NCBI GenBank assembly: GCA_023299815.1
Contig: JALZWA010000095.1
Span: 1-34,518 of the forward strand
Length of the DNA stretch: 34,518 nt
Direction: 5' to 3'
Origin: Akkermansiaceae bacterium
GTDB taxonomy: Bacteria; Verrucomicrobiota; Verrucomicrobiia; Verrucomicrobiales; Akkermansiaceae
Shown here: piece after piece, positions 7,689 to 32,614 of the stretch
How positions within the stretch are numbered: position 1 is the first letter of the stretch
How the letters are laid out: each line of letters starts with the position of its first letter
Notes under the pieces: model-generated
What the model saw: the letters and a program-made list of their open reading frames with translations, nothing else
Database searches by the model: none
What the model was told of the DNA's origin: nothing
Translations under genes and position numbers: made by a program

Positions 7689-7698
7689 CTCGAAGAGA

Positions 7699-7733: not shown

Positions 7734-7761
7734 ACGTCTTTAAAAGAGATTGAAAATCCGA

Positions 7762-8268
7762 TCAAAAATTTGATCCTTCGGACACGACCGCCACGGCGAT
7801 AACTCCAATCGTCAACAACTGAAAAGCGAGCCCGATATAGCCGCAGATCAGACCAGCAAGAGCCATCCCATGTCCGGCAATCTGACCCCTTGATTCCTTA
7901 ATCCGCTTCATTGCCATGTGCCCACAGATGATCGCAGGAATGGCAACCACTGCATTCACGTAACACATGATGAGGCTTAGGATCCCGCACACGAGAGAGG
8001 CGATGGCGAGTCCACTTGTCGGTGGAACTTGCGCATAGACCACCTCCTGCGGAGCTGCCACAGGATTGGTGCTGGGAGTGGCATAAGGTGATACCGGAGC
8101 AGCAGAGACAAGCTCGGCAACTTGAGCGAGCGGAAGCCACTCGCCCATTCCCTCACGCCAGACGAGATCCGTCGGTCCAACTTGGCCAGCAGCGATGCGC
8201 GATCGCATAGTCGCCTCATCAATCGGACCCTCTTGTTGGCCTGCTCGCCCGTAATACCATTCGCTCAT
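7762..8268 (-). CDS. GYF_2/DUF4190 membrane protein, paralogue 2
   Basis: 168-residue paralogue of its neighbours. GYF_2 module in residues 1-50 (MSEWYYGRAGQQEGPIDEAT, DLVWREGMGEWLPLAQ), a short Ala/Pro linker, then DUF4190 with two hydrophobic segments (GLAIASLVCGILSLIMCY and GMALAGLICGYIGLAFQL) separated by GHMAMKRIKES. It lacks the charged C-terminal helix of paralogue 1. Its stop codon lies inside the palindrome GATCAAA-AA-TTTGATC (7760-7775), which could act as a weak terminator or mRNA-stabilising hairpin. Likely an inner-membrane protein with the GYF_2 module in the cytoplasm; function unknown. Confidence 0.82.
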   Translation of the reverse strand: MSEWYYGRAGQQEGPIDEATMRSRIAAGQVGPTDLVWREGMGEWLPLAQVAELVSAAPVSPYATPSTNPVAAPQEVVYAQVPPTSGLAIASLVCGILSLIMCYVNAVVAIPAIICGHMAMKRIKESRGQIAGHGMALAGLICGYIGLAFQLLTIGVIAVAVVSEGSNF

Positions 8269-8278
8269 CGTGAGGACA

Positions 8279-8312
8279 CTCCCATGACTCGATAGCCTTC
8301 GTCGACATAAAT
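8279..8312 (-). pseudogene. decayed copy of the fabI 3' end (scar 2)
   Basis: Ungapped alignment of 8281-8312 with the fabI end (8964-8995) gives 22 of 32 identical bases by my count. Translated on the minus strand it still reads YVDEGYRVMG against YVDGGYEIMG at the end of FabI, 7 of 10 residues. The distance to the following GYF start codon is 13 bases, against 14 for real fabI. Confidence 0.68.
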
Positions 8313-8334
8313 TAACTCACGAGAAAAGAACTCA

Positions 8335-8363
8335 AAAAGAGAGGTCTCAACCCATCAAGAGAC
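8335..8363 (-). terminator. possible weak terminator or attenuator after GYF paralogue 3
   Basis: On the minus strand GTCTC (8363-8359) pairs with GAGAC (8348-8344) across a 10-base loop, followed by CTCTCTTTTT. The stem is only 5 bp, so partial termination between the paralogues is the most that can be proposed. Confidence 0.28.
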
Positions 8364-8380
8364 GGCCTGCTTGGTTTCGT

Positions 8381-8950
8381 CTATGGTGAAAACTGCCAGC
8401 TCTCCAACCCGCCTGACTCATCGTCCGATGAAGAACTACTGGCAGCGGCTGTCATAAAAAGGACGACAAAAAAGCCGATAATCACTAAGGAAATTAAGCT
8501 ACCAATGTAGCCGCAGATCAATCCGGCTATCGCCATCCCTTTTCCTCCCATTGCCAGCTGGGGATTCTTGAAAGACTTCATCGCCAGGTGCCCGCAAATG
8601 ACGGCAGGAATCCCGAAAATAATTCCTATATGAAAGCAGATCGAAAGGATCGCGAGAATTCCGCAGACCAAGCTAGCTATCGCTAATCCACTCGTGGGCG
8701 GAGCAGCCACATAGGCGACCGCAGGTTGTGCCGGATAAGGATTTGTCGAAGGAGTCGCGTAAGGAGAAGCTTGTGGGGCAGAGACAGCCGAAAGCTCACT
8801 CACCTGCCCCAGCAGAAGCCACTCAGGCATTCCCTCGCGCCAGACGAGATCACCTGAACCAACAAGGCCCTCAGCGATGCGCGACCGCATAGTCGCGTCA
8901 TCGATCGGGCCTTCTTGTTGGCCTCCTTGGCCGTAATACCACTCCGTCAT
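8381..8950 (-). CDS. GYF_2/DUF4190 membrane protein, paralogue 3
   Basis: 189-residue protein, first of the three tandem copies in transcription order, starting 6 bases after the fabI stop. GYF_2 module in residues 1-50 (MTEWYYGQGGQQEGPIDDAT, DLVWREGMPEWLLLGQ), a Pro/Tyr/Ala linker, then DUF4190 helices around GLAIASLVCGILAILSICFH and GMAIAGLICGYIGSLISL with GHLAMKSFKNPQ between. It ends in a Ser/Asp-rich tail. Coupling to fabI suggests steady expression with fatty-acid synthesis, but no functional link is known. The GHxAMKSFKNPQ loop is closer to paralogue 1 than to paralogue 2. Confidence 0.83.
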   Translation of the reverse strand: MTEWYYGQGGQQEGPIDDATMRSRIAEGLVGSGDLVWREGMPEWLLLGQVSELSAVSAPQASPYATPSTNPYPAQPAVAYVAAPPTSGLAIASLVCGILAILSICFHIGIIFGIPAVICGHLAMKSFKNPQLAMGGKGMAIAGLICGYIGSLISLVIIGFFVVLFMTAAASSSSSDDESGGLESWQFSP

Positions 8951-16998: not shown

Positions 16999-19900
16999 TT
17001 ATTCAGCCTCCGCTGCATGCAAGCGGTAGAATTTGGCAGCCGAACCTGCAAATACTGGGAGCCTGAAATAATCAACGGTCCCTTCTGTCCGGTCGCCGAG
17101 GAAGGAATCCGAATCCGACCAGATCTCAAGATCTGAAGACTCTTGCAAGGTATAGGAAATATCAGTAATACTTTGGTCAATTCCGAATTCAAACCAGCGA
17201 TTGATGCCGTCCGTGGTGAATCTTGGCACATTCGCTGGGACATCTGCTACAAGTGGGTTTCCTCCGAATGCATACTCCTCAGCATTCGAATAGCCATCAT
17301 TGTCGGGATCTTCGTTCAAAGCTCCTGTTCCGAGACCGTTCTCCGCGGCCCATGTGGCCATCGTGCTTGCTGGGATAATTGAGATATTATCAAGCCAAAC
17401 AGCATCGACAACATTTTCACTACTGAAGTCTTTACGGTAACGAATCTCTACAAAGTTCATTCCGACTGGAATATCACCGGAAGTATTTGAGTAAGCGGGC
17501 GAAGTCCCCGATCCGATCAGGGCAGGCGTCAAGATATCGTTGTAGACGATTCCATTCACCAAGATCTCAAGGACATCTCCGGCATTTGTTGAAGTGCGAT
17601 AGTCGAGTGAGATCGTAGCGGGTCCCTCAACCCAAGTCCCCATTGAGACGGTCTGTCCATTTCCTACTCCCGAAGAACGAATCGCCTCACCATCAGGAGC
17701 CAACACATCAGCGACAGGAATCCACAAGGTTTTGCTCTCCATCTCAAAATCGAAGTTGATATTCGCGGCATCCTCAATCTCTTTGAGATAGGTATCGTAG
17801 TCCACTAATTCAACATCGTCGACGAATCCGCGATCATCTCCAACAGAGTCCGTAGTGTTTTCAGGGTCAACAGGGTTAGGCTCAGCTACGTTCTTTTGAT
17901 AGATCCATCGAATATCAGATCGCCCAGGGAGTCTCACCGCAACCTCAGCCCAATCTTTTTCACCGTCGATGAAAGCGCTCCATCTCGAAGGAAGATCACC
18001 ACCTCCTACTTGGAACCAAAGACGATCATAGCTAGAGGTCTCGGGATTCGACTCAGAAGACACTCTCCAACTAAAGCGAGCGACACTCTCAGGAACACTG
18101 CTAAATCCAAAAACTGATTCTTGGTTGTCCTCAAGTTCCTCCGGGCTAGCTGCTGAGTTACCTTCAGACAGGAAAGTATCAAAGTTGAAATCCCAAGGGA
18201 GATCCCCTCCTGAAATGCTTGTCCGCGCGGGCACACCCACAGCCGATCCAAGTGATTCCTGCGTCGGCTCAATAATGAAAGCCAAAGTAACTATTATTGT
18301 TCCAGAAGGTCCAGTAATCGTTACCGAAGCATCAAAGAAGTCAGCGCTGGCGGGAACACCTGAAACGATACCTGTCGCAGCATTGTAAACCAACCCGTCC
18401 GGTAGATTCACGACACTAACATCCGTTCCGCCCAAGGTTTCTAGGTTATAGATCAGAGGAACACCCTGCACACCGGAGACGACACGATTACTCACCAAGA
18501 GAGGTGATTGAAGGATTGGGGCATCGGCATCTTCCGGCCCATGAATAATGATCTGTGCGTTGTTTAAGCGCGAAGGAAGATCTCCAGCATTTCGATCAGT
18601 CACACGAAGAACCCATGTCCCAGCAGATCCCTCTCCCCAGTTGCGGACTGTCATGAAGGTCCAGTCAGAAATACTCTGCTCATCGCTATTTGAATGAGCC
18701 TCGGCGAGAATACTCTGGGTCCCATTTGGAGAGATCAAGACAATATCAAGGTCCGCACGTCTGTCGGAAACAATTGTTGTCCGCAACTGAACGTGCTCAA
18801 CACGACGATTGGGCTCTTCAGAGAGATCAAAAGTCAATACGTAAGAGTCCCCATTGCCATCAGGAATATCCGCCACCGGAAACTCCAGAAGTGTCAGTGC
18901 CTCACCCTTATCGGGCAGAGCAGACCACGTTGATGCAGCCTGCACCGCAGCTTCAGCATTTACCATTCCCGCACCATACTCGTGGTTAAAAGTAAAACCT
19001 GCGCCATTTTCAATCCACTCACCGCTATTAGAATCCACTTGAACTGCAGTTTGCATCAGAATTTCCTGAACATCACGCCACCCGAGATCCGGCCTAATGC
19101 TTTTCATAAGCGCTGCAACTCCAGACACGAGAGGTGCTGCTGCCGATGTGCCACCAAATTCGGATGTGTAGGATTCAAAGATGGGCCCAGCGGGAAGTCC
19201 AAATACTGGATCAACCTCTTGATCGATAGTAGCCGCGACAACACCCTGCCCCCCACCATCTGAGGGAGCGCTGATTACTAGATTCGCACCCATTTCAGAA
19301 TAAGGGGCTCGAACACCCTGGTCAGTAATTGCTCCCACCGCAATGGTTTCAGGCAAGTTTGCATAACCATCATAATTAGAATTGTCGTTATTTTCAGCTC
19401 CATTGCCTCCGGCCCAAACAAAAATTGTTCCAGTAGCACTATTTCCACCCGTTACAGCCTCAGTTTCAATTGCGGCTTGAGCCAATGGTCCAATAGGCTC
19501 AAGAGTTGTCTCGAAATCAGAAGGTCCCCAACTATTGTTGGAAACATCTGGATTTGCACTTAAACTTGGATCCGCATTAGGATTGGAGAAGCTCAAGGCC
19601 AGAGCCTCCTGCTGATCAGTGGAGGGCTCAGCAATGAGCCTAACCCCAGCAAGGATCGCCTCAGGCGCAACACCTGACATCCCCTCATCATCGAAAGTAG
19701 CACCTAACAACGAAGCCACTGAAGTTCCATGGCTTTCAAGGACACTTTGTGGTTCTGCGTCATCAGGATCACCACCATTCAAGTTGAAGGAAAAATCGGG
19801 CAAGAAATTTGTGAGATCAGAATGACTTGAGAAAAAACCATCGTCAATGATGGCGACCCCTACATTAGCACCTGTCGAGAGATCCAAAGCACCCTCGAGA

Positions 19901-20538
19901 TTGATGTCAATATCCGCCACACCGTTATTTGACCCATCATTATTGAGATACCACTGATAGTTATCATCAACACCTGGGAACGCATAATATGGATCCGTGG
20001 GGATTCTTCTGACAAACTTCTGACGCGCAAAAAGAGGTTCAGTGATCCTTACCTGCGGATCTTCAGCAACATTGGATAACTGAGTTAAAACCTTTGCTGT
20101 GCTGGCCTCGGTGCATACTGCCAGTCCTTTTTCTGGATAAAGCATCTCGACCTTCAGAATGCCGTGGCGTTTTTGAAATGCCTTCACATCAGCTCCGACT
20201 GTGAGCTGCACAAGATAAGTATGGCGTAGGATCCGGCGGGATCTCTCATTACCCTCTTCTCCTTCGGGATAAAAAACCAAGTAAGCGTCAGAGTTTGCAC
20301 GCTTCATGACAGCAGAGGATCCACCCGAAATATCCTGAATTTTAAGAGCACCAGTAGCATCTGCGGTGCAGATTTCGGTGGCGCAGAGTTCAAGTTGGTA
20401 TGGAATTCCAGAGCGCTTGAAGGTGAAAACCTCAGCGTTCGCATCTCCCTGTGGAAATAGCTGAGGGTTAGTTGACTGCCCGGAAGCAGCGCATGAAAGC
20501 GCTAAAAGCGACAAGAGGGCGAGGTGTCTAGATTTCAT
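16999..20538 (-). CDS. secreted subtilisin-like serine protease with P domain
   Basis: 1179-residue S8 (subtilisin) protease, exported by an N-terminal signal peptide (HLALLSLLALSCAASG, cut near residue 20). After a propeptide-like region, the catalytic triad is Asp232 (VAIIDDGFF), His270 (ESHGTSVASLLG) and Ser465 (FGGTSAAAPL), with oxyanion Asn379 (WAGGNGAEN). Residues of about 545-670 form a proprotein-convertase P domain (VEHVQLRTTIVSDRRADLDI, TWVLRVTDRNAGD). A putative Ig-like segment follows (NLPDGLVYNAATGIVSGVPA), and then a jelly-roll-like region with NINFDFEM and TISLDYRTSTNAGD. The C-terminus has a calcium-binding DPDNDGYSNAEEYAFGG and a beta segment ending KFYRLHA. No PEP-CTERM anchor. 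It follows the other secreted gene by 37 bases. Substrate unknown. Confidence 0.92.
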   Translation of the reverse strand: MKSRHLALLSLLALSCAASGQSTNPQLFPQGDANAEVFTFKRSGIPYQLELCATEICTADATGALKIQDISGGSSAVMKRANSDAYLVFYPEGEEGNERSRRILRHTYLVQLTVGADVKAFQKRHGILKVEMLYPEKGLAVCTEASTAKVLTQLSNVAEDPQVRITEPLFARQKFVRRIPTDPYYAFPGVDDNYQWYLNNDGSNNGVADIDINLEGALDLSTGANVGVAIIDDGFFSSHSDLTNFLPDFSFNLNGGDPDDAEPQSVLESHGTSVASLLGATFDDEGMSGVAPEAILAGVRLIAEPSTDQQEALALSFSNPNADPSLSANPDVSNNSWGPSDFETTLEPIGPLAQAAIETEAVTGGNSATGTIFVWAGGNGAENNDNSNYDGYANLPETIAVGAITDQGVRAPYSEMGANLVISAPSDGGGQGVVAATIDQEVDPVFGLPAGPIFESYTSEFGGTSAAAPLVSGVAALMKSIRPDLGWRDVQEILMQTAVQVDSNSGEWIENGAGFTFNHEYGAGMVNAEAAVQAASTWSALPDKGEALTLLEFPVADIPDGNGDSYVLTFDLSEEPNRRVEHVQLRTTIVSDRRADLDIVLISPNGTQSILAEAHSNSDEQSISDWTFMTVRNWGEGSAGTWVLRVTDRNAGDLPSRLNNAQIIIHGPEDADAPILQSPLLVSNRVVSGVQGVPLIYNLETLGGTDVSVVNLPDGLVYNAATGIVSGVPASADFFDASVTITGPSGTIIVTLAFIIEPTQESLGSAVGVPARTSISGGDLPWDFNFDTFLSEGNSAASPEELEDNQESVFGFSSVPESVARFSWRVSSESNPETSSYDRLWFQVGGGDLPSRWSAFIDGEKDWAEVAVRLPGRSDIRWIYQKNVAEPNPVDPENTTDSVGDDRGFVDDVELVDYDTYLKEIEDAANINFDFEMESKTLWIPVADVLAPDGEAIRSSGVGNGQTVSMGTWVEGPATISLDYRTSTNAGDVLEILVNGIVYNDILTPALIGSGTSPAYSNTSGDIPVGMNFVEIRYRKDFSSENVVDAVWLDNISIIPASTMATWAAENGLGTGALNEDPDNDGYSNAEEYAFGGNPLVADVPANVPRFTTDGINRWFEFGIDQSITDISYTLQESSDLEIWSDSDSFLGDRTEGTVDYFRLPVFAGSAAKFYRLHAAEAE

Positions 20539-20575
20539 AATCTTATAAAAGGGTAGTTTATTAATGGAGGGGGGC

Positions 20576-22042
20576 CTAGTTTTGGGTCAGCTTCACGCGA
20601 AGAAGACAGGTAGCGTCTGGAACCGCGGCGCGACTCCGGACGCGATAAAATTCCTCATCATCGAGTTCAATGAGCCAGTCAGGACTTGTGGGGGTGATCG
20701 TCGTGTAGTTCACACGGTCTGTGGTAAACTGGACTTGGTATTGAAGCCTGCTTCCGACATCGGGCCTTTTAGGAATCGTGAACACACACTGATTAGTCAG
20801 CGGGTCAAGAGTCGGAGCTAGGTTAGGAACTGAGGCCGGGTCTATCGGATCTGTCTGAAGACCAAACTCTTCGATATTTGTGGCTCCGTCACCGTCATAG
20901 TCGGCATTGGCCAGAGTGAGGTCCTCATCTAGGAACTGCGAAAAGTTGGCATTCACATTCGCAAAGCCTTCATACGTTTCAACGAAGCGAACATTAAATA
21001 AGAAGGTGCGGGATGACGCGTCGCGAGAATTAGTAGTTGAGAAAAGATTTCGGGTGAAGGTAATATTCCCTGTCCATCGATCTCCCACTACAGCAAATCC
21101 AGGTCCCAATTCATAGGATGAAGAGGGAGTCGAAATGAGTTCTGGCAATCTCTGAGCAGGAGGAACTATGGGATTGTATGGAGGAAACACAACAAATCCA
21201 GCTGGGAAAAGACCATCATCGCTGTCGAAAGTCCGCTGCATGGAGAAAAAAGTAGAATCGGAAGCAATAGTCGACTCACCGTTAAAGCCTCGCCAATTGA
21301 ATCTAAAAAAGACCGTGGGGTCGACTTCAATATTCCCATCAACCCAATCTCCATCATGAAGCATGGTGAATTCATTAGGGCCTGGAACCCTCCCCCGTCC
21401 CGGCCAAGCCTCGATCATCTGGAGATGGGAAATCCTGATTGGAAATGCGTTAATGGTATCGTTGATACGAGGAAACTCGAAAATGTATGTTCCTGGGACA
21501 ATTTCATCTAATTGATCCTCAAGTTGGTTCACTCCATAGCCTCTCGTTGAGGTATACTGAGTGAGCTCAAAGGCCTGAATAGGAAAAGTGATTTGATTAA
21601 ACCAAATCACAATACTCGAATCAACCCAACTCGCACCTCCAAGGGGACGTGAAAGCGATGATGGGGGTGCTGCAGACAAGCGAATACGGCTGGTCTGAAA
21701 AGGGTCGACCTGTATGGCCCGCTGAATACTAGCAATTGAAAAATAGAGATTTGTATCACGAATCCCGTCTCCATCTAGGTCACCTGAGGTCACAAAACCA
21801 GTTGTCCCTAAAGGACAGGTGAGATTGGGCGGAATCAGCAAGAGACTTGGCGCAAATAAACACCCCGCAACTTGGGCATTACCGTCAGTCAACGCCAAAT
21901 TGAGCGCTCCCCCTTCGAAAGTTAAGTCTCGGTCATTGAACTGTCGATAAGTCTTCTGATCCGAGAAATTGAGTATGGCTTGCCCCGAAGACAATAGAGG
22001 CGTTAGCGCTAAGGCCCCAAGAAAACTGGTTTTAAAATTCAT
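20576..22042 (-). CDS. secreted protein of unknown function, calcium-binding C-terminus
   Basis: 488-residue protein with a signal peptide (MNFKTSFLGALALTPLLSSGQA). I used the ATG at 22042 because it begins this signal peptide directly; an in-frame start at 22087 only adds hydrophilic residues. Most of the chain is beta-rich with no named domain. It includes GDLDGDGIRDTN, a calcium-binding-type loop, and a second such loop NADYDGDGATNIEEFGLQTD near residue 390, followed by a beta segment (RLQYQVQFTTDRVNYTTI, EEFYRVRS) that parallels the end of the downstream protease. This shared tail suggests a common export or surface-attachment role. It is transcribed just before the protease gene (37-base gap), so the two may act together. 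No catalytic motif seen. Confidence 0.75.
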   Translation of the reverse strand: MNFKTSFLGALALTPLLSSGQAILNFSDQKTYRQFNDRDLTFEGGALNLALTDGNAQVAGCLFAPSLLLIPPNLTCPLGTTGFVTSGDLDGDGIRDTNLYFSIASIQRAIQVDPFQTSRIRLSAAPPSSLSRPLGGASWVDSSIVIWFNQITFPIQAFELTQYTSTRGYGVNQLEDQLDEIVPGTYIFEFPRINDTINAFPIRISHLQMIEAWPGRGRVPGPNEFTMLHDGDWVDGNIEVDPTVFFRFNWRGFNGESTIASDSTFFSMQRTFDSDDGLFPAGFVVFPPYNPIVPPAQRLPELISTPSSSYELGPGFAVVGDRWTGNITFTRNLFSTTNSRDASSRTFLFNVRFVETYEGFANVNANFSQFLDEDLTLANADYDGDGATNIEEFGLQTDPIDPASVPNLAPTLDPLTNQCVFTIPKRPDVGSRLQYQVQFTTDRVNYTTITPTSPDWLIELDDEEFYRVRSRAAVPDATCLLRVKLTQN

Positions 22043-22214
22043 GAAGTATGTGGTCGAAGGTGTTTCAAATGTATTTACATGTGCCATCTGAACGTGGCAA
22101 GGAGAAATTACAGTCTCCCGAATTTCAAAGGCAGCAAATTACCACTGAAAAAAACGGGATTATGCAGACTCCTTGAAAGCTAGCGATCCTGCTGGAGCAA
22201 GGGCAAGCGCAAAA

Positions 22215-23885
22215 TCAGCGCAAGCCCTTCAGAAGAAGTTCTGCGTTGGTTTTTGTTTTCGCGAGGCCCCCAAGAAGAACTTCAATCGCCTCCCCAATCG
22301 GTAAAGCTGCGAGGTGACGCCTGATATCCAAGACTCTCGGCAATTCGTCCGGATGGTAGAGGCGATCATCATTTCTGGTGCCACTTTGAGGGATATGAAT
22401 GGCCGGATAAATGCGCTGTTCAGCCAAGAGTTGATCCAAGCGGACCTCCATATTGCCAGTTCCCTTCAATTCTTCAAAAATAACATCATCCATCCGATTT
22501 TCGGTCTCGATAAGACAAGTCGCGAGAATCGTCAAACTCCCCCCCTCTTCCAAATTTCGAGCTGCGCCGAAGAACTTCCGGGTCTCCGTGATTGCCTTAG
22601 GACTCACTCCTCCAGAGCCAATGGGCCCTCCACGCATCGCATTATTATAACCCCGAGCCAGACGAGTGAGAGAATCGAGTAAAATAACGACATCTTTGCC
22701 CTGTTCGACCAAGCGCCGGGCTCTCTCTAGCACGAGAGCAGCGACTTGAGCGTGTCGCTTAGAAGATTCATCAAAGGTCGAGGCAAACACATTCCCCCCC
22801 ACCATGTCCTCAAAGTCAGTGACCTCCTCTGGACGCTCATCAAGCAAGAGCACCATCAACTCGGCTTCGGGGTGATTTTTTTGCAATGATTTCGCAATTT
22901 GCTTCAGAAGGATGGTTTTTCCACCGCGCGGAGGAGCAACGATCAATCCTCTCTGACCCTTTCCAAGGGGAGCGACAAGATCGACCACGCGCACGGCAAG
23001 GCCTGCATCGTCATCTAACTCGAGCACAAAGCGCTCTTCAGGAAAAAGAGAAGTGAGATAGTCAAAAGGCGCCGGGGCCTTATAGTCCGCAAGCGAGCAA
23101 CCCTCCACTTCCAGAACTTCGTCCACCGAGAGATATTTATCGCGTCCCTGAGGAGGTCTGACGGAGACCTTTAGCGATTGTCCCTCCCTGAGATTGTGAT
23201 CTCGGATCATTGCCATCGGCAAATAGAGATCATCAGGGGAATTTCGAAAACTCCGCTTGGGATCTCTGAGCATTCCAAAGTTATCGTTTGCTAATTCCAA
23301 GACCCCCTGCCCTTCAATCTTGGTCCCGTGAGTCGCGTAGCAGGATAAAATGGTGTAGACCAGTTGCGCCTTGGAAGCCTGTGTTGGGATCCTCAACGGC
23401 AATCGCTCAATCTCCGCATACAGATCGACCAAAGACTGCTCTCGGAACTCCGAAAGAATCACCGCTTCTGGCACCTCAGGAGGTGGAGGCAGCTCTCTCT
23501 TAGGCTTAGGCTCACGCGCAGGCTTGGACCTCCTCTCGCCTTCTTCCGTCTCTTCCTGAGCGGGCTTTCTCTCGTCTTGCCGCTTCTTTTCATCAGTCGG
23601 CGCTTTCTCCGCGACGACTTCCACGAGCGGACTGACGATCTCGACGCCGGGCTGCAGGGCGAGCACCTCTTGCTCAGCAGGCTGATCTGGGATCTCCTCA
23701 AGCTGCTTCTCCTTCTTTGGAGCGGCTTTTTTAGCCGCTTTCTTTGCTGCCTTTTTGACAGTTTTTTTTGCTGCTTTCTTAGCCGCTTTTTTAGCAACTT
23801 TTTTGGCCGCTTTCTTCTTAGGCGAAGTTTTTTCTACTTCCGGACTCTCTTGAGCGGGAAGCTCGGGCTCTGGGGCGTCATTCAT
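22215..23885 (-). CDS. rho: transcription termination factor Rho
   Basis: 556-residue hexameric RNA helicase that ends transcription at Rho-dependent sites. The core (from about residue 140) holds the RNA-binding fold ([19 protein letters not shown]), the Walker A loop APPRGGKT, Walker B with [15 protein letters not shown], the R-loop region SGGVSPKAI, and [20 protein letters not shown]. In front is a disordered extension of about 140 residues: lysine/alanine repeats of the AKKA type at 23-58, then an acidic and Arg/Lys-rich stretch. The core Walker A has Arg-Gly where E. coli has Lys-Ala. I start it at ATG 23885 rather than the frame's upstream codons; this ATG overlaps the coaE stop as ATGAATGA, so translation is coupled. 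Confidence 0.96.
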
Positions 23886-24513
23886 GAATCGTATTTTCTG
23901 CAATAAAGTGATCAATCTGGTTTTCGAGAACCTGCAGAGGCCCTTCGTTCCAGAAGACGAGATCTGCCCGTGCTACTTTTTCCATGATGGGAAGTTGAGC
24001 AGCTAGGATTGAGCTAATGAGCGCATCACCGAAATGATTGCGGTCCCTCAAGCGTGAACGTTGTGTCTCCATCGAGGTGGCAATCACAAGATTCAGATCC
24101 TGAAAGAAACTGAACCCCCCTTCAAAGAGAAGAGGAACGTCCGCGACAAACATCGCCGATGCACTATTTCTAAGCCATTCTTCCCGTTTCTCAAGACATT
24201 CCTCACGAACCTTTGGATGGAGAATCCCCTCCAAGGCTTTCCGCTTTCCAGAATGTGCGAAGACAGATTGGCGGAGAGCGACCCGATCCAATCCTCCCTC
24301 AGCCCCTCTCACCACCTCTCCTAGCTCACTGATAATAAGAGAAACGATATCCTCACGAGCCAAAAGCCCTTGCACTGATTCATCGGCATCGAAGACTGTA
24401 ACCGCCGGCAGCTTACTTTGGATCAGTTTCAGCGCCGTGGATTTGCCAGTAGCAATCCCCCCGGTGAGCCCGAGGCACAGCTTCTTTTCCTCTGGAGATG
24501 AATTCACGTTCAT
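23878..24513 (-). CDS. coaE: dephospho-CoA kinase
   Basis: 211-residue CoaE, which phosphorylates the 3'-hydroxyl of dephospho-CoA in the last step of coenzyme A synthesis. The P-loop GGIATGKST is at residues 18-26, FDADESVQGLL carries the acidic substrate-side residues, and HPKVREECL and VADVPLLFEGG are the other conserved family blocks. The ATG at 24513 is preferred; extension to 24525 would use a TTG inside the T-run of the pilQ terminator. No ribosome-binding site is visible. The gene overlaps rho by 8 bases. Because it lies directly after a strong terminator, either readthrough or a promoter at the end of the pilus operon must drive coaE-rho. Confidence 0.93.
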   Translation of the reverse strand: MNVNSSPEEKKLCLGLTGGIATGKSTALKLIQSKLPAVTVFDADESVQGLLAREDIVSLIISELGEVVRGAEGGLDRVALRQSVFAHSGKRKALEGILHPKVREECLEKREEWLRNSASAMFVADVPLLFEGGFSFFQDLNLVIATSMETQRSRLRDRNHFGDALISSILAAQLPIMEKVARADLVFWNEGPLQVLENQIDHFIAENTIHE

Positions 24514-24523
24514 AGGGAGAGAC

Positions 24524-24556
24524 AAAAAAAACGGGGCCCTGTCGAGGACCCCGTTT
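24524..24556 (-). terminator. Rho-independent terminator of the pilus-like operon
   Basis: Stem of 12 bp on the minus strand, AAACGGGGTCCT/AGGGCCCCGTTT with one G-U pair and a 4-base loop, followed by eight T (24531-24524). It lies about 22 bases after the secretin stop and 10 bases before the coaE ATG. Confidence 0.88.
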
Positions 24557-24578
24557 TGAGAATGATGAGAAATAACCT

Positions 24579-27134
24579 TTAGTTACCCAAACCAGGGAGA
24601 AGGCCAGTGTTTGAAGGAGCACCAGCACCTTCACTCTCAGCTGCTGCTCTCACGCGGCGGCCTGTGGCATCGATGATCTCTGCAGTCACGAAGATGATCA
24701 GGTTACTCTTGATGTGGTTTTCAGCCTTGGTCTGGAAAAGACGCCCGATGAAGGGGAGATCTCCAAGAACAGGAACTTTATCCTCCACAGACTGAACATC
24801 CTCACGCATGAGACCACCCACTGCGACGGTGTAGCCGTCATAGATGGTGATTCCGGTGGTCACCTTACGAGTTGAGAAGATCGGCATCTCGATGCGGTTC
24901 TCAGTAATTACGATCTGAATCGCATTACCAAGAGCATCAGAAGCTGGTGAAGTAATCGGGCTACCGTAGTTTACGAAGCCTTCGAACTCGACAATCTCAG
25001 GAGCAAAGCGGAGGTCAATGACGCTGTCATTTGCTCCGACGTTCGGCTCAATCTCAAGGATCACACCTGTGTTCCGAGTATCGAAACTAGTAGGAGTCGC
25101 TGGTGTCACTGGGAAAATTCCAGCAGTTGTTCCAGTTCCACCAGTGGTTCCGCCAGTCGTTCCAACAGAGTTAGGAAGTTCGGGTGGTTCGTATTCGGTG
25201 GGGTAAATAAACTCACGAATGATCTCGATGGTCGCCTTATCTCCCGGACGAGCCATGACGCTTGGAGCGGTCATGACATCCGTCCCCTTTTTCTGGGAGA
25301 GACCACGCATGATCATCTGGACCTGTCCCTGACTGAAAAGGCCAGTGAGAGAGAGGATGCCAGGTGCCACACTCGTGTTCTGAGCGGTGCGAGATGGATT
25401 GTTAAGAATCGCATCAATGCTGTTTCGGTTGATGGCAAAATCACCACTGCGGTTTCCACCAGTGACGATATTAGAGACAGAGTCCCCTGTCGCCGCTGGA
25501 ATACCAGGAATCGTTGTGAAATCCACTGGGCTGATGAAGTCACTTGCGAGACGATCTGATCCAGAACCCACCGTTCCACCACCTGCGAAGAGGCGATTGG
25601 TTCCGAATGGAGTAATGACCCAGTCAAAGCCGAGTTCTTCACCATTTTCCTGAGAAACCTCAACGAATTTGGTAAGAATCTTAATCTGACGTGGCGTGTC
25701 TGTGAAGGAAGCCTTCACGATCGCATCCACCAGCTCAAGTTGAGTTGGGGAGTTATTGACGATGAGCGTGCCATTGAGAAGGTTTGCAGATGATCCGTCA
25801 GCACTGAAACTGACGCCATTGTCTTCAAGGAGGACCTTGACTGCCTTACGCGCTTTGATCACTCCGCCACCGCCGTCACCAGCGTCAGCAAAAGGATCAA
25901 CGTCTCCTCCGCCGCCGCCATCACCACTGCCACCTTCGATGAAGGTGATAAAGGTAGGAGGAACGGTCCAACGGCGATTGACGACATCTTCGCCTCCAAT
26001 CGCACCGATGGGTAAGAGAGTCACGGCATATTCGTCGACCTTGTAGCGGAGACGAGCCTTCTCACAGATATACTGGAGAGCAACCCCGAGAGGGACATTC
26101 GTGATGTTAAGAGAATCGATGCGAGCTCCACCGGTGTCACCACCGCCTAGGTCGCCAGCTTCTGCGTCAATAGCAGCATCTCCAGCTCCGGAGACGGTGT
26201 TGCCCTTGACCACGAAGTTGATCCCCTTCTCAGAATCAATGAGGGTCGTGTCATCAAGCTCCTTGGAGCGGACACGAAGGAAATCAATTGCTTCCTGAAC
26301 TGTGGTGTCCTGGAAGTCGATGACAGGGATGATGATCTGCTGCAGTTTAGCTGAGATCGAGGTTCTTCCTGCACCCTCGTCAAATGACAGGGAGAGATCT
26401 GGACCTTGAATACCGACAGGAGGAAGGGAACGCTCCCAAGCCTTGTCGACCTCCATGAGCATGCGCGAGCGTTGCTCGTCATAGGCGGCACGGTAGTAGT
26501 CAGCCTTGATCGACGCACAGCGCTCAAGCCAGCGACGTGCTGCCTTGTTGTATGGGTCAATGCGAAGGACATTGTGGAAGTGCTCCTCAGCTTTGTCATA
26601 AAGGCCGAGGTCGTAAGCGCCTTCTCCACGATAGAGTGAGTGCTTAACCTTCTCGATATTCTGAGTGTGGTCAAAGGTCAGTGCTTGGTTCGTTCTGATG
26701 GGATCATCAAGATACTCAAGCTGCTGCTTAGCTGCGGTATTGTCTGGATCAGATTCGACAACCTCATTGAGGAGATCGCGAGCTTCCTCATACTTACCCA
26801 TGCGGCGCTGGTTTGTAGAGAGGGCTACACTACCGTCTTGCAAGTGCTGTTGTAAAACAGCGCGTCGCGCCGTGGTAGCGGTTCCATAAGGCAGGTCATT
26901 AAGTGCCTGACGGTATTTTTGAACCGCCGTATCGTAATCTCCCTCAGCGTAAGCCTTGCGGCCTTCGATAAGAAGCTCATCGGCATTCTGAACCGCCGCT
27001 TGGCGACGAATCAATTCCTGAGCTGGGAGACTACCTTGTCCATGCGCCAGAGGCGAAACAGAGAGGGCCGCGAGAGCCATCAATGTGCAATTGGTGAGGT
27101 GTGTGTGTCTTTTCTGCATGATCTTGTTGAACAT
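24579..27134 (-). CDS. TPR-containing secretin, Amuc_1098-like pilus outer-membrane protein
   Basis: 851-residue outer-membrane channel protein of the type IV pilus/type II secretion secretin family. A signal peptide (CTLMALAALSVSPLAHG) is followed by TPR-like repeats (residues 50-210: RKAYAEGDYDTAVQKYRQAL, YEEARDLLNEVVESDPDN, YDKAEEHFHNVLRIDPYN). Periplasmic N-domains follow, one starting VIDFQDTTVQEAIDFLRVRS, interrupted by Gly/Asp-rich loops. The C-terminal secretin barrel has DTRNTGVILEIEPNVG and VAVGGLMREDVQSVEDKVPV with LGDLPFIGRLFQTK. N-terminal TPRs on a secretin fit the Amuc_1098 type of Akkermansia. Start: ATG 27134, or ATG 27119 which starts the signal peptide more tightly. Last gene of the cluster, followed by a strong terminator. 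Neither the pilin nor the motor ATPase genes are in this window. Confidence 0.92.
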   Translation of the reverse strand: MFNKIMQKRHTHLTNCTLMALAALSVSPLAHGQGSLPAQELIRRQAAVQNADELLIEGRKAYAEGDYDTAVQKYRQALNDLPYGTATTARRAVLQQHLQDGSVALSTNQRRMGKYEEARDLLNEVVESDPDNTAAKQQLEYLDDPIRTNQALTFDHTQNIEKVKHSLYRGEGAYDLGLYDKAEEHFHNVLRIDPYNKAARRWLERCASIKADYYRAAYDEQRSRMLMEVDKAWERSLPPVGIQGPDLSLSFDEGAGRTSISAKLQQIIIPVIDFQDTTVQEAIDFLRVRSKELDDTTLIDSEKGINFVVKGNTVSGAGDAAIDAEAGDLGGGDTGGARIDSLNITNVPLGVALQYICEKARLRYKVDEYAVTLLPIGAIGGEDVVNRRWTVPPTFITFIEGGSGDGGGGGDVDPFADAGDGGGGVIKARKAVKVLLEDNGVSFSADGSSANLLNGTLIVNNSPTQLELVDAIVKASFTDTPRQIKILTKFVEVSQENGEELGFDWVITPFGTNRLFAGGGTVGSGSDRLASDFISPVDFTTIPGIPAATGDSVSNIVTGGNRSGDFAINRNSIDAILNNPSRTAQNTSVAPGILSLTGLFSQGQVQMIMRGLSQKKGTDVMTAPSVMARPGDKATIEIIREFIYPTEYEPPELPNSVGTTGGTTGGTGTTAGIFPVTPATPTSFDTRNTGVILEIEPNVGANDSVIDLRFAPEIVEFEGFVNYGSPITSPASDALGNAIQIVITENRIEMPIFSTRKVTTGITIYDGYTVAVGGLMREDVQSVEDKVPVLGDLPFIGRLFQTKAENHIKSNLIIFVTAEIIDATGRRVRAAAESEGAGAPSNTGLLPGLGN

Positions 27135-27219
27135 TCGTTAAAATATGGGGGTGGTGGGAAGCTTTTTTTTACCTTCCTCCACTAAATTCGTTAGTTTTCT
27201 TTAAAGTCAGGGTGATTTT

Positions 27220-28281
27220 CTACTTTAATTCGATGCGGCGGGTCTTTTTCTCGCCCCCATCATCGTATTCTACGATTGCCGCGAGCGGTTTAATGAAGGG
27301 TCGTTCACCCATGTCGACTTCGAGAAGCTTATACTCGAGGGTCTTACCATCGGCAGTGACCTTGAAGGATGTGTTTTCCTCCACGACGATCTCTTTCCCC
27401 TCTTGGCCGGCGGCATTGAGGATGAAGGTGACGGTGTTATCAAAGCGATAGAAGTTCTTCTTAACCTCAGTCTTTGGTCTCAAAGGAGCGTGAAATTGGA
27501 CATTTCCTTTGTTTGATTTGAGGTCTTCGACGACAGCGAAGGTTCTTTTGACCTTCTTACCGCGCTCTTCGACTTCCTTCTCGATCTTCTCGATGACCTT
27601 AAAGCGCTCCTTCTTAGGACCATCCTTGAAGAAGACGTCACCAATCTTGACATTACTGGTGGCGCTCATGCGCAGACTCACCTTCTTGCTGTCATTATAG
27701 CGAAACTGGAAATTATTATCTCCAAGACTAGAATTAAGCTCAAGGAGCCAATAGGTCGAATCGACATTCTTGACCACAAGTTTGTGGACGAGAAGCGGGT
27801 AATTCTTGGGATCTGCAGGATCGGTCTCAGCTTCGAATTCTTCAAGATTGGAGAAGCCATCGCCATCTTGATCTCGCTGCGGCGAGTCCGAAAAGCTTGG
27901 ATCCACGTCATTCTTCACCCACCAAGAGTTGGGAATGGGAGAATGCACATCACCGAGATCGGCATCTAAGAGGTCGATCGGATTTTCAACGTCACCATTG
28001 GCAACGAAAAGATCGACACTTGTGAAGAGGTTTACGATGCGCCCGCTCTCAGGAATGGGTTTCGCGTTGAGCGGATTGAGATCACCAAGAGACTTTACGA
28101 GGATCTCAGCCCTCTCCCCCCCCGTGACGGCGGTGTTGTCACCCTTCCCTCCGGAAGAATTTGATTCGAACTCGGCTTGCATCGCGGCTCCCTTACTCCA
28201 AGAGAGGTAACCGACTGCGGCAAGAACAACGACTCCACCCCCGAGGGCGGCTTTATGATAATTTTGGGACATCCAGGACAT
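27220..28281 (-). CDS. Amuc_1099-like pilus-associated membrane protein
   Basis: 353-residue protein anchored by one N-terminal membrane helix (AALGGGVVVLAAVGYLSW, residues 11-28), the rest outside the cytoplasmic membrane. In the middle it has DQDGDGFSNLEEFEAETDPADP, a thrombospondin-type-3-like calcium loop that is common in this phylum, followed by a beta-rich C-terminal domain (SYKDSK-type segments; FYRFDNTVTFILN, TLEYKLLEVDMGERPF). I identify it mainly by position between the Amuc_1100-like gene (12-base gap) and the secretin gene (85-base gap), which is the Akkermansia order. A role in the periplasmic part of the pilus machine is inferred; no enzymatic motif is visible. Confidence 0.8.
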   Translation of the reverse strand: MSWMSQNYHKAALGGGVVVLAAVGYLSWSKGAAMQAEFESNSSGGKGDNTAVTGGERAEILVKSLGDLNPLNAKPIPESGRIVNLFTSVDLFVANGDVENPIDLLDADLGDVHSPIPNSWWVKNDVDPSFSDSPQRDQDGDGFSNLEEFEAETDPADPKNYPLLVHKLVVKNVDSTYWLLELNSSLGDNNFQFRYNDSKKVSLRMSATSNVKIGDVFFKDGPKKERFKVIEKIEKEVEERGKKVKRTFAVVEDLKSNKGNVQFHAPLRPKTEVKKNFYRFDNTVTFILNAAGQEGKEIVVEENTSFKVTADGKTLEYKLLEVDMGERPFIKPLAAIVEYDDGGEKKTRRIELK

Positions 28282-28293
28282 GGTTCTTGTGGG

Positions 28294-29280
28294 TTACTTG
28301 ATGGCTGGGAATTTAAGAGATTCGTCGAACAACAGGAGATCTAGACGAATGTAAGCGGAAACATCATTTCCACCGGCGACACGCTGGAGGATCTGAGTTG
28401 CAAAAGTAGAAGCAGCCTCCTCGGCTGGATCATCCCCTTCGACGACTCCGAAGTCGTCATCAGGTTCAACCTCCTCGATCTTGGCGCGCTTGATCCCTTG
28501 TGAGGAAGGCACAGGCGCGTAGTTCTTGATGCGTCCAATCCGAGTCTCGAAGAAGAATTTCTGAGAGTTGGCGATGGCCTCGATGGCTTTACGAACAGAC
28601 TCCTCGGACCCCTGAATGGTGAGATCCATGGGGAGACGCTTGGCGATAGGAAGAGTGGGTGCTGCGGGAGCTGACCTCCTCTTGCTTTTGCCTTTTGTGG
28701 CTCTCCTTCTGGGAGGCTTTTCGTCCCACTTCTTCCCTTCCTCGGGAGGAAGGACGCTGCGATTGAAGTTTACCACCTTTGAGACCTCTGCATTGGCAAG
28801 CTCGGTGAAGAGCCACTCGATGGCAGAAAGCTCATAGGCAAGAATGCCGGTAGCACTGTCCTTAGGAAGAGAGCCTTTGTATTGCTCGAAGCCAAGGTAA
28901 GCATCATTGGGCATATCAGCATCCTTTTCGTCAAAAGCGGCGCGGACGGAAGTGTCGGCTTGCTTGAGACGGTCAGAAAAGGTGCTGACGGTGATATTTT
29001 CAAGGGACTCAGGGCGGAAGGCTAGGAATTTGGCCTGCATGGCTTCAGCCTTAGCGACGACCTCTTTGAGATTCGCCTTTTTCTCAGCGACGCTCTCGAT
29101 GGTAGGATAGGGATCGAGAGCTTTCATCTCGGTCATATTGTCATTTTGCGCAGCGACATCATCAGCGACAAGATCGCGCGAGGCGGCAGTCTTGAAGCCA
29201 AGGAAGACGAGCAGCCCGGCGATGAGGGCAGTCACCGCTAGGAGACCGCCGAGGAATTTGTTTTCTTTAAACCAGTTCAT
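28294..29280 (-). CDS. Amuc_1100-like pilus-associated protein
   Basis: 328-residue protein close in length to Akkermansia Amuc_1100 (317 residues), the membrane protein reported to signal through host TLR2. One N-terminal membrane helix (residues 9-29, FLGGLLAVTALIAGLLVFLG) anchors it, followed by a helical region (ESVAEKKANLKEVVAKAEAM). The later alpha-beta part contains LTIQGSEESVRKAIEAIANS and FFFETRIGRIKNY, a layout also seen in PilO-like pilus alignment proteins. Between them lies a strongly basic linker, PPRRRATKGKSKRRSAPAAP (189-208), and an acidic one before the C-terminus (EVEPDDDFGVVEGDD). It starts 18 bases after the PilM-like gene and ends 12 bases before the Amuc_1099-like gene, so it is mid-operon. 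In a free-living host its role would be pilus assembly. Confidence 0.85.
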   Translation of the reverse strand: MNWFKENKFLGGLLAVTALIAGLLVFLGFKTAASRDLVADDVAAQNDNMTEMKALDPYPTIESVAEKKANLKEVVAKAEAMQAKFLAFRPESLENITVSTFSDRLKQADTSVRAAFDEKDADMPNDAYLGFEQYKGSLPKDSATGILAYELSAIEWLFTELANAEVSKVVNFNRSVLPPEEGKKWDEKPPRRRATKGKSKRRSAPAAPTLPIAKRLPMDLTIQGSEESVRKAIEAIANSQKFFFETRIGRIKNYAPVPSSQGIKRAKIEEVEPDDDFGVVEGDDPAEEAASTFATQILQRVAGGNDVSAYIRLDLLLFDESLKFPAIK

Positions 29281-29298
29281 GGTTGGAAATTGGGAAAG

Positions 29299-31050
29299 TT
29301 ATTTGAGTGAAATAGGTGTTTTGAGAGGAACGATGATCTCGAAAGGTGCGGCATAATTACCTTCGGCAGGAGCCGCCTCGATCGTCTTCACGATCTGGCC
29401 TTCTGAGAGTTCTTTTTTATCCCAAGTGAAGTTGAGAAGATCGGACTTGCGAAGATTCGCGACGAGAGCGAGAACGCCATTCCGGTTACTGCGGCAGAAG
29501 CCTCGGATGACGATGCAGTCGGCCATGTTATTCTCCTTCGGGAGGAAGACTTGCTTTCCATAGGGCGCGATACCGAAGCCTTCATTGATCACGGCATCAT
29601 TTCCCTCATCTAGGATAGGGGCATAATTCGCACGTGGCTCAAGATCAGTCACCCACACTTGGTCACTGACCATGTGATTCGAGAGGTCATCGATGAGAGT
29701 AAGAACTGACAAGCGCCCATTCTCAGCAGCCTCGTAAGAATTGATAAGGGTCTGTGACTCCTTCTCCTTTTTGAGGATTTTCCTCAACTGATTGGCTGGC
29801 CCGGTGAGAGCCTGCTCTTCAGTCTTGGAGTCTTTAATAACAGCCTTTCCGTCGTTAGCGGTGAGGATATTAAAGACAGGCCAGAGCGCGAGTCCCCCGA
29901 GGAAGATTGCCGCGGCAGCGATCAAGGTGGGCTTGCGTCGGGTAATATCCCGCTCGGCCTGAACCACGTCAGGCACGAGGTCGATATTAATGGTGGCCTT
30001 TTCCGCAGCGCGGAGTCCAAGGCCAACCATCTCACCCATCATGTGAGCTTCAGCACCGAGTGCTTCGACATCGACACCTTTTCCAACGGAGATCCGCTGG
30101 AGAGGATTGAAAATTTCAACAGGAATATTGAGCTTCTCCTCAAGAAATTCCTTCATGTAAGGAAGGTTCGCTCCCCCTCCAGCAAGAAGGACCTTCTTAG
30201 GCGCGGCACCTCCGTGCTGACTGCGGAAGAGCTGGGTGGTCCGAGCGACTTCTGCGGTGAGGCGAGTAAGACCGTTCCGAATCACGGTGCCCAAGTTTGC
30301 GGTGGCTTCATCAAGCTGAGAAGCGTGACCACCACCGAGAACGACGAGGCCGGCAGTGAGCTTGGTATTTTCAGCCTCTGCAAAGGAGACATTGTATTCC
30401 TTGGCGATGGCGCTGGTGAGAGACGCTCCCCCGACAGGCACGCTACGGGTGAAGAATTTATCACCCTCAGCATAGATGAGGTTGGAGGTCTTTGCTCCAA
30501 CATCGAGAAGGAGTGTGCTTTCACTGAGATCTGGATAGTTATAGCGAAGCGCATTGTAGAGCGCTGTAGGAGCGGCATCTACGAGGCGAGTTCCAAGACC
30601 AGTCTCAGCGACGACCTCATTGAGATCGTTGAGAGAATCCGATTTGATGGCAACGAGAACAACCTCGGTCTCAATTCCTGGAGTCTTGAGGATCTCCCAG
30701 TCCCATACGACTTCATCGATGGGAAAAGGAACGTTCTGTTGTGCTTCGAAGCGGACGAGTTCCTCGACATTCTCTTCTTCAAGAGGTGGAAGCTTGACGA
30801 AGCGAACGAAGACAGACTGGCCCGAGAGCGAGTAGGCTGCCTTTTGCTTGCCAAGTTTCAGTCCTTTAGCCAATTCCTTAATAGCGAGTTGGACCTGCGG
30901 AATGCGGGCCGCCTCGGTAGCGGGATCGGCGAGAATGCTAGTTGCTCCCTGCGATTTCAGGACTAAGCCCTTTTTGGTCTGGGCGAAGACGCCCATAGAA
31001 ATCCGCTGGGATCCAATATTGAGTGCGATGATCGACTGTGTATCAGCCAT
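29299..31050 (-). CDS. PilM-PilN fusion protein (Amuc_1101-like)
   Basis: 583-residue protein. Residues 1-350 are the actin-like ATPase PilM of type IV pili: N-terminal IIALNIGSQRISMGVF (phosphate-1 loop region), LLLDVGAKTSNLIY (phosphate-2) and KKVLLAGGGANLPYMKEFLE (adenosine-binding). Residues 351-360 (KATINIDLVP) match the conserved start of PilN (INLLP), followed by a membrane helix (TLIAAAAIFLGGLALWPVF, about 375-394), a coiled segment and a periplasmic alpha-beta domain (VWVTDLEP, IVIRGFCRSNRNGVLALVAN). In most bacteria PilM and PilN are separate and bind through exactly that PilN N-terminus; here they are one chain. The next gene follows by 18 bases. The frame on the opposite strand at 30043-30966 is a shadow. 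Confidence 0.93.
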   Translation of the reverse strand: MADTQSIIALNIGSQRISMGVFAQTKKGLVLKSQGATSILADPATEAARIPQVQLAIKELAKGLKLGKQKAAYSLSGQSVFVRFVKLPPLEEENVEELVRFEAQQNVPFPIDEVVWDWEILKTPGIETEVVLVAIKSDSLNDLNEVVAETGLGTRLVDAAPTALYNALRYNYPDLSESTLLLDVGAKTSNLIYAEGDKFFTRSVPVGGASLTSAIAKEYNVSFAEAENTKLTAGLVVLGGGHASQLDEATANLGTVIRNGLTRLTAEVARTTQLFRSQHGGAAPKKVLLAGGGANLPYMKEFLEEKLNIPVEIFNPLQRISVGKGVDVEALGAEAHMMGEMVGLGLRAAEKATINIDLVPDVVQAERDITRRKPTLIAAAAIFLGGLALWPVFNILTANDGKAVIKDSKTEEQALTGPANQLRKILKKEKESQTLINSYEAAENGRLSVLTLIDDLSNHMVSDQVWVTDLEPRANYAPILDEGNDAVINEGFGIAPYGKQVFLPKENNMADCIVIRGFCRSNRNGVLALVANLRKSDLLNFTWDKKELSEGQIVKTIEAAPAEGNYAAPFEIIVPLKTPISLK

Positions 31051-31081
31051 GGTTGTGTATGTTCTGCGAGCTTTATCAGAT

Positions 31082-31108
31082 AAAACCTGAGTAATTTGAG
31101 GCTCAGGT
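31082..31108 (-). terminator. hairpin between the first and second pilus genes, possible attenuator
   Basis: ACCTGAG (31108-31102 on the minus strand) pairs with CTCAGGT (31091-31085) across 10 bases and is followed by TTTTAT. A second hairpin with 6-bp arms ACGGCT/AGCCGT (31119-31136) lies just upstream. The pair could partly terminate transcription after the Amuc_1102-like gene or set the ratio of it to the other pilus proteins. Confidence 0.45.
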
Positions 31109-31159
31109 GAAAAGAATAACGGCTCCTCTTAGCCGTGCTCCGGTTAAGAAGCCTATAAA

Positions 31160-31807
31160 TTAGTTCTTCTTAGGCGCGATCTCTGCGTAGCGATCATACC
31201 AAAGAAACTTGAAAGGTGTTTCATTCTTATCGAGGAGCGGGAATTTACCGGTGCGCTCGACATTTTTACCAAGATCCTTTCGCCACCAACCATTTGGCTG
31301 TCCGTGACTGAAGAAACCTACCATTTCACTGTTGTAGTGAATCTCGCCACCGATCGCCTCTAAATCGCTTTTACTCGCGGAAGAGCTACCGGTAATGCGA
31401 CGCAAGGCATTGGGTGAAATGTAAATGGCCGCTACTACCTCTTCATCGACAGGAATATTTACATGCGTGACCTCTTTCTCCACTAGGTATGTTTTGCGGT
31501 CTTGCCCTTTGACAACAACCCACCACTTCACCGTGACTGAGTCGAGATAATCATCCTTTGGGGGATTCTTCATCCTTTGAACCTTGAAGGGAACTTCGAT
31601 CTCAAGCCAATCCTTGGGCTTGAATCTCTTATTCACACCGCCAGTGCTAATATCAGGAGATGGGATATCGGTAAACTCAAGGCTCCCAACATTGAATTTA
31701 TTATCCTTACTGAGCGGCACTTCCTCCTGCCCAAAAGTAACTGAGGCCGAGGCCAGGGCGAGGCCTAAGATGGCCACGGTATTGCGTAATTTTTTCCCCT
31801 TCATCAT
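31160..31807 (-). CDS. Amuc_1102-like secreted pilus-cluster protein
   Basis: 215-residue protein with a signal peptide (VAILGLALASASVTFG, cut near residue 27). The mature part is a beta-rich domain with SLEFTDIPSPDIS, DWLEIEVPFKV, SVTVKWWVVVKGQDRKTYL and FKFLWYDRYAEIAP. I recognise it by position as the first gene of the Amuc_1098-1102-type cluster and by size and secretion; the function in the pilus machine is unknown. Two consecutive Met codons open the gene (31807 and 31804). Upstream, 31808-31942 is shared with the divergent aroD gene and contains an AT-rich near-palindrome (31870-31887). Two hairpins separate its stop from the PilM-PilN gene, unlike the close spacing of the other cluster genes. 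Confidence 0.78.
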   Translation of the reverse strand: MMKGKKLRNTVAILGLALASASVTFGQEEVPLSKDNKFNVGSLEFTDIPSPDISTGGVNKRFKPKDWLEIEVPFKVQRMKNPPKDDYLDSVTVKWWVVVKGQDRKTYLVEKEVTHVNIPVDEEVVAAIYISPNALRRITGSSSASKSDLEAIGGEIHYNSEMVGFFSHGQPNGWWRKDLGKNVERTGKFPLLDKNETPFKFLWYDRYAEIAPKKN

Positions 31808-31942: not shown

Positions 31943-32614
31943 ATGACAAGACAGACTCGACTTATGAAGCAAGAAGAGCCCTTTCATCTGGAGCGCGTCC
32001 TCGTGGTCGGTGCGGTAGCGGATGCGGCGGCTTTTAAGATGCTCGCCGCCGACTGCGATATGATCGAGCTCCGGCTTGATTCACTCGGCGCAGGCGAGGA
32101 GGTGATCAACTATGCTAAACAATGCCCCTGTCCCCTTCTCTTAACAGCGAGAGGGCCAGAGGAAGGCGGGCAAAATAATTGCTCTGTGGAGGAGCGTCGA
32201 GCGGCCTATATGGCACTCCTCCCCTATGCCACGGCGATCGATATCGAGCTGCGCTCATTCTACCCACTCAGGGATGTCATCGACGCCGCAAAAAAGGCGG
32301 GCGTCACCATCGTGGGATCTTTTCACAACTTTGAAATGACACCTCCGCTGGATATTTTGACTGCCAAAATTGGAGACATCGCAGATATTCACAAGTTCGC
32401 GACAATGGTGAACTCTGAAAGTGATCTCGAAATCCACCGTGCCCTTCTCCAAGGCGGAAAGCCTCTCTCAGTGATGGGAATGGGATCGCTGGGGGCCGAG
32501 GCGAGACCCGAAATGATGAAAATGGGGTCCCTTTTAAACTACGGCTACCTCGGTGAAGTCGCGACGGCCCCAAACCAGTGGCCAGTAGCAAAGCTTAAGG
32601 CGCTCGCTGGTTAG
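31943..32614 (+). CDS. aroD: 3-dehydroquinate dehydratase, type I
   Basis: 223-residue AroD, which removes water from 3-dehydroquinate to give 3-dehydroshikimate in the shikimate pathway, through a lysine Schiff base. The TIM-barrel motifs are in order: MIELRLDSLG (Glu42, Arg44, Asp46), LLLTARGPEEGG (Arg70), VGSFHNF with catalytic His128 and ADIHKFATMV with Schiff-base Lys151, then MGMGSLGAEAR. Start M1 at 31943 adds seven residues before M8 at 31964 (MKQEEPFHLER); a TTGACA at 31929-31934 may be a -35 box and would favour the later start. Its stop codon overlaps the dinG stop of the opposite strand in the sequence TTAG, so the two genes converge with no space. Type I enzymes are about 220-250 residues, so the length fits. 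Confidence 0.93.
   Translation: MTRQTRLMKQEEPFHLERVLVVGAVADAAAFKMLAADCDMIELRLDSLGAGEEVINYAKQCPCPLLLTARGPEEGGQNNCSVEERRAAYMALLPYATAIDIELRSFYPLRDVIDAAKKAGVTIVGSFHNFEMTPPLDILTAKIGDIADIHKFATMVNSESDLEIHRALLQGGKPLSVMGMGSLGAEARPEMMKMGSLLNYGYLGEVATAPNQWPVAKLKALAG

Follow-up and report, generated by a model that had tools for sequence, protein, structure and literature searches.

Amuc_1100 has been studied mainly as a host-signalling protein. Its gene lies in the Amuc_1098-Amuc_1102 cluster of the gut bacterium Akkermansia muciniphila, which was described earlier (PMC5332112). In aquatic Akkermansiaceae the corresponding genes are known as the MUL2 locus, which has been published from marine and freshwater members with coaE (dpck), rho (ttfr) and aroD (3dqd) as neighbors, and for which a role in attachment has been reported (PMC13174399, ISME J 2026). 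That publication takes 1099-1102 as the locus and labels a secretion-channel gene as adjacent; MUL2 is described there as frequent in other Verrucomicrobiales families and less so in Chthoniobacterales, and it was not detected in Methylacidiphilales.

The DNA analyzed here (hereafter, the window) is a stretch of 34,518 nucleotides that makes up a whole contig of an Akkermansiaceae MAG assembly (2.9 Mb, 311 contigs, 89% complete). Because the arrangement, neighbors included, has been published as MUL2 (PMC13174399), the locus and its gene neighborhood are real but already known. In genes, in coaE, rho and aroD neighbors and in bacterial family the window equals the published loci, and it is another member with no essential difference. 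What is added beyond the publication is a PilM-PilN fusion in 1101, a wider collinear block, motor genes elsewhere in the genome and signs that 1102 is unlikely to be the pilus subunit. Together with a testable layout in which 1102 would be an accessory protein and not the filament, this is the value that remains.

Organization of the locus

Five open reading frames were found on the minus strand where the original prediction had placed them (Table 1), and their order is 1102-1101-1100-1099-1098. Each product scores above the cut-off of its own curated NCBIfam family, so that both the identities and the order proposed are confirmed. The 1100 and 1099 proteins, on which the prediction had been staked, match their family profiles with E values of 9e-69 and 9e-82, respectively, and refutation therefore fails. 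Families, order and strand are those of the A. muciniphila cluster, and the 1100 and 1102 products match the solved structures of Amuc_1100 and Amuc_1102. The differences are that the host of the window is not a gut bacterium and that its 1100 protein is only distantly similar, with an E value of ~1e-12 in a direct phmmer comparison with the solved Amuc_1100 chains 6kny, 6lad and 6laf.

All the published neighbors are present in the window. The divergent aroD-like gene reaches 98 bits with TIGR01093, below the cut-off of 139. A strong terminator-like hairpin, a consensus match, lies between 1098 and coaE and suggests an end of the operon at this point. The coaE gene also adjoins pilB-pilC-pilD in gammaproteobacteria; linkage of coaE to a pilus operon (window positions 22215-24525) may be due to chance.

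Further away, the minus strand carries a tandem of three related genes (positions 7071-8950) whose products share an N-terminal motif (EWYYG..GQQEGPIDEATMRSRI) and have hydrophobic C-terminal segments. Positions 16999-22087 encode a large secreted subtilase, which has a P-domain and a TSP3-like repeat, and beside it a secreted protein of unrecognized family in which a similar TSP3-like motif occurs.

Table 1. Coordinates of the five genes, their neighbors and selected features within the window.
Feature	Position	Strand	Evidence or remark
rho	22215..23915	(-)	NF006886, 481 bits (cut-off 315); conserved neighbor
coaE (dephospho-CoA kinase)	23878..24525	(-)	TIGR00152, 119 bits (cut-off 66); beside 1098, conserved neighbor
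Predicted intrinsic terminator, 13-pair stem and T run	24528..24557	(-)	Consensus scan; 3' of 1098, before coaE
1098, Amuc_1098-family TPR-secretin (PilQ/GspD-type), 851 aa	24579..27134	(-)	NF042912, 1066 bits (cut-off 750)
1099, Amuc_1099-family protein, 353 aa	27220..28281	(-)	NF042425, 275 bits (cut-off 50)
1099 TSP3-like acidic loop, putatively calcium-binding, DQDGDGFSNLEEF, residues 137-158	27808..27873	(-)	Family alignment
1100, Amuc_1100-family protein, 328 aa	28294..29280	(-)	NF038287, 232 bits (cut-off 180)
1101, Amuc_1101-family PilM-PilN fusion, 583 aa	29299..31050	(-)	NF045709, 761 bits (cut-off 650)
1101 transmembrane helix, residues 374-398, between PilM-like and PilN-like parts	29857..29931	(-)	Hydropathy
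1102, Amuc_1102-family (MUL2A; Amuc_1102_rel) secreted protein, 215 aa	31160..31807	(-)	NF042424, 203 bits (cut-off 55)
1102 Sec/signal peptidase I type signal, residues 1-26, TFG|Q	31730..31807	(-)	Family alignment, by-eye reading
aroD-like (type I 3-dehydroquinate dehydratase), divergent	31943..32614	(+)	TIGR01093, E 8.5e-28; conserved neighbor

Relatedness to type IVa pilus proteins

The 1101 product had been read as a fusion of PilM and PilN, and this reading holds against solved structures. When the family profile was compared with the PDB, positions 1-350 matched Myxococcus PilM (3jc8_Ma, E 2e-65) and positions 355-481 matched Myxococcus PilN (3jc8_Na, E 2.7e-7), PilM structures being by far the strongest matches. 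Pfam PilN gave one weak match among 25 single 1101 proteins, whereas the profile match to the PDB is clear.

The locus thus resembles the type IVa pilMNOPQ arrangement (Myxococcus 3jc8; Pseudomonas) in its homology to PilM and PilN, in its secretin, in the short membrane-anchored proteins between them and in the order M-N-(O)-(P)-Q. It differs in that PilM and PilN are fused, in that 1100 and 1099 are not detectably PilO and PilP, and in that 1102 stands at the head of the operon without a counterpart. At the other end, the 1098 product contains a secretin domain (PF00263, E 6e-29) and TPR; a PilQ model matches it with an E value of 1e-22, below its cut-off.

The 1100 protein has a single N-terminal membrane helix (residues 7-34, hydropathy). 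Its family profile matched the three Amuc_1100 chains with E values of ~1e-90 and no other chains, and Pfam PilO gave no match. For 1099, the AlphaFold model (mean pLDDT 83) contains two beta regions of six strands each and, at the N terminus, a helix. Likeness to PilP was looked for in 1099, but the profile search of the PDB gave no notable match and Foldseek found none below 1e-3 for the model. Profile and Pfam searches thus detected neither PilO nor PilP in the sequences of 1100 and 1099, and it is by map position that such roles might be assigned to them. The two beta regions of 1099 do not appear to be copies of an internal repeat (hhalign probability 12%).

Residues D137, D139, D141, G142 and E148 of the 1099 acidic loop are almost invariant across the family alignment; PF18884 matches the loop with an E value of 7.5e-4, below the family cut-off. 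The 1099 family shares its C-terminal portion (profile positions ~158-321) with further proteins encoded in the same genomes, examples being G252:C1:5287736-5288251, G179:C1:636388-636879 and, in the source MAG, G000:C41:12915-13370. At some loci further 1099 matches are found behind rho, and these are probably due to shared TSP3-type motifs.

The 1102 product

The AlphaFold model of 1102 superposes on the crystal structure of Amuc_1102 (7dsz) with TM values of 0.70-0.81; the signal region is modelled with low confidence. The first residue past the cleavage site, Q27, is at least 90% conserved in the family alignment. Neither a class III signal nor an N-terminal polymerization helix was found in the alignment, the model or the hydropathy profile, and no hydrophobic helix follows the signal. 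Because its export signal is ordinary and the polymerization helix is missing, 1102 does not qualify as a type IV pilin, and it is unlikely to be a pilus subunit.

The MUL2 publication describes 1102 as structurally similar to an archaeal pilin (PMC13174399). We did not recover this likeness: after 7dsz, the best structural matches were unrelated beta proteins, and no pilin appeared among the 50 matches listed.

Pilus parts elsewhere in the genome

The window contains no gene for a pilin, PilB, PilC or PilT, as had been noted in the original prediction. Candidates for these parts are encoded on other contigs of the assembly. Contig C264 encodes two adjacent PilB/GspE-type ATPases and a PilC-type protein (G000:C264:971-4336, L014); neither ATPase reaches the equivalog cut-off of PilB or that of GspE, and pilC is cut by the contig end. 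A PilT/PilU-like pair is encoded on C130, its PilT being above the family cut-off, and a prepilin peptidase on C84 (A24 N-terminal domain PF06750, E 1e-30). Nine proteins with a class III signal were detected in the assembly, and some of them resemble T2SS pseudopilins.

Pilus parts are thus dispersed over the genome and not absent. The suspicion that the system might be split is borne out for the motor ATPases, PilC, the PilT/PilU-like pair and the prepilin peptidase. The other suggestion, that the missing genes might indicate a non-classical pilus, loses its ground: with these parts encoded elsewhere, nothing against a classical pilus follows from the lack of their genes at the locus.

Separate T2SS-like genes were also detected, namely a GspD-like secretin on C267 and a GspE/GspF-like pair on C19. 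Their presence indicates a distinct type II system, which makes it unlikely that the 1098-1102 locus is a T2SS.

Distribution and synteny

The closest named relative is the Akkermansiaceae MAG ANT-64, with 82% identity across the whole 1101 protein. Named relatives show the order aroD(-)/1102-1101-1100-1099-1098-coaE-rho as well. In the 80 named loci compared, 1102 is followed directly by 1101 in every case, and the remaining genes keep the same order to the limit of each contig. The exception is Rubritalea marina (L222), in which neither 1100 nor 1099 was detected. A divergent aroD upstream and coaE-rho downstream are often found.

In a sample of 260 genomes of the phylum, matches with E ≤ 0.001 were obtained in 251 genomes for 1101, 200 for 1100, 110 for 1102, 228 for 1099 and 252 for 1098, figures that take in general PilM/FtsA relatives (1101), general secretin relatives (1098) and proteins sharing part of 1099. 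Because raw counts include such relatives, gene order is a better measure of spread. The five genes lie on one contig, on one strand and in the same order in at least 23 family-level groups, each represented by one genome per family label picked as complete among the matches listed, so that the figure is a lower bound and not a rate.

The wide spread that had been predicted across the phylum is therefore upheld by a collinear five-gene block, and occurrence outside the gut by the MAG studied here and by the published marine and freshwater members (PMC13174399). The block is wider than the wording of that publication, and the difference may reflect search sensitivity.

The 1101 gene was absent from 7 of the 11 genomes without PilT above cut-off and from 19 of the 249 others (Fisher p ~1e-5; the seven double negatives belong to two family labels, and kinship is not taken into account by the test). 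In G116, G136, G205 and G208, four genomes in all, 1101 is retained without PilT above cut-off.

A probable type IV pilus machine and its alternatives

Our preferred interpretation, which we consider very probable, is that the five genes are the MUL2 operon of aquatic Akkermansiaceae and supply the cell-envelope components of a type IV pilus machine, the motor genes for which lie at other places in the genome. The 1101 PilM-PilN fusion would sit at the cytoplasmic face and cross the inner membrane. The 1100 and 1099 proteins, which each have an N-terminal membrane helix and occupy the places of PilO and PilP on the map, would extend into the periplasm, and the 1098 TPR-secretin would be the outer-membrane gate. 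The 1102 product may act as an exported accessory protein and not as a filament subunit, while PilB-like and PilC motor proteins, PilT/PilU-like ATPases, the prepilin peptidase and pilins would be supplied from elsewhere in the genome. Attachment to particles or glycans would be the expected use.

While family identities, the PilM-PilN fusion, gene order and motor parts elsewhere are observations, we infer assembly into one machine, cooperation of the dispersed motor parts with the locus, the PilO/PilP roles, the filament and attachment. Points in favor of the pilus reading are the five family matches in order, the co-absence of PilT and 1101, PilM-PilN, the membrane helices of 1101 and 1100, the secretin with TPR, the motor parts, the separate T2SS-like genes and the published attachment. 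Against it count the lack of PilO and PilP by sequence, the lack of a confident fold match for 1099, the four genomes with 1101 and without PilT, and a second 1098-type secretin that could serve as an alternative motor partner. A broader proposal is that the locus exemplifies a phylum-wide type IV pilus variant of Verrucomicrobiota, with a fused PilM-PilN, 1100 and 1099 replacing PilO and PilP, a putative calcium loop, a non-pilin 1102 and a dispersed motor; we regard it as tentative and somewhat doubtful.

GspL is itself a fusion of PilM-like and PilN-like parts. The main alternative is a type II-family bridge for secretion or glycan uptake, with GspL-like 1101, GspM-like 1100, GspC-like 1099 and GspD-like 1098, which would transport proteins or glycans across the outer membrane instead of building a pilus. 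The order of roles, GspL-GspM-GspC-GspD, is the same as in the window; three 1101 members match PF05134 (T2SSL) weakly; among general secretin models 1098 scores higher with GspD than with PilQ; and, according to the MUL2 publication, glycan accumulation in A. muciniphila depends on mul genes (PMC13174399). We nevertheless consider this alternative unlikely. The locus is not the genome's GspD with GspE and GspF linked to it, as T2SS-like components lie on the separate contigs mentioned above; PilM structures far outscore all others as matches of 1101; and the genome has a pilT/pilU-like pair.

The presence of Amuc_1100 in a conserved machine of non-gut Verrucomicrobiota fits an ancestral role in the envelope or in attachment, of which host signalling would be a later consequence, a case largely made beforehand by others (PMC13174399). 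That immune signalling is a by-product, as the original prediction proposed, is plausible and in keeping with the wide non-gut distribution. We found no assay of a non-gut Amuc_1100 homologue in the publications consulted.

A second 1098-type secretin

Most genomes of the family have a second full-length Amuc_1098-type TPR-secretin away from the 1098-1102 cluster. In the source MAG it is apparently split into two pieces at contig ends (G000:C30:8629-10588, L162, and G000:C8:3-548, L163); intact copies are found at L160:9344-11866, L161:9147-11672 and L164:7501-9960. Its existence means that the motor could partner this secretin instead. We nevertheless regard as very improbable a reading in which the window locus serves as an envelope scaffold independent of pili and the PilB/PilC/PilT motor works with the second secretin, which adjoins a conserved unnamed bitopic protein: motor genes are unlinked to either secretin locus, yet PilM and PilN, the link between motor and envelope in known machines, sit at the 1098-1102 locus, and the second-secretin loci examined showed no PilM-like gene next to that secretin.

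The unnamed protein (~510-550 aa) is encoded directly downstream of the second secretin (L163:548-2110, L160:7678-9324, L161:11694-13334 and L164:5939-7468). Its conserved N-terminal motif reads E-V-V-x-R-x-D-G ... K-R. A single membrane helix is present, much of the protein is presumably periplasmic, and comparison with Pfam and NCBIfam gave no family match above cut-off.

In one genome, G125 (L166), two 1098-type secretins stand in tandem within the cluster, an arrangement which hints that the second secretin was born by tandem duplication.
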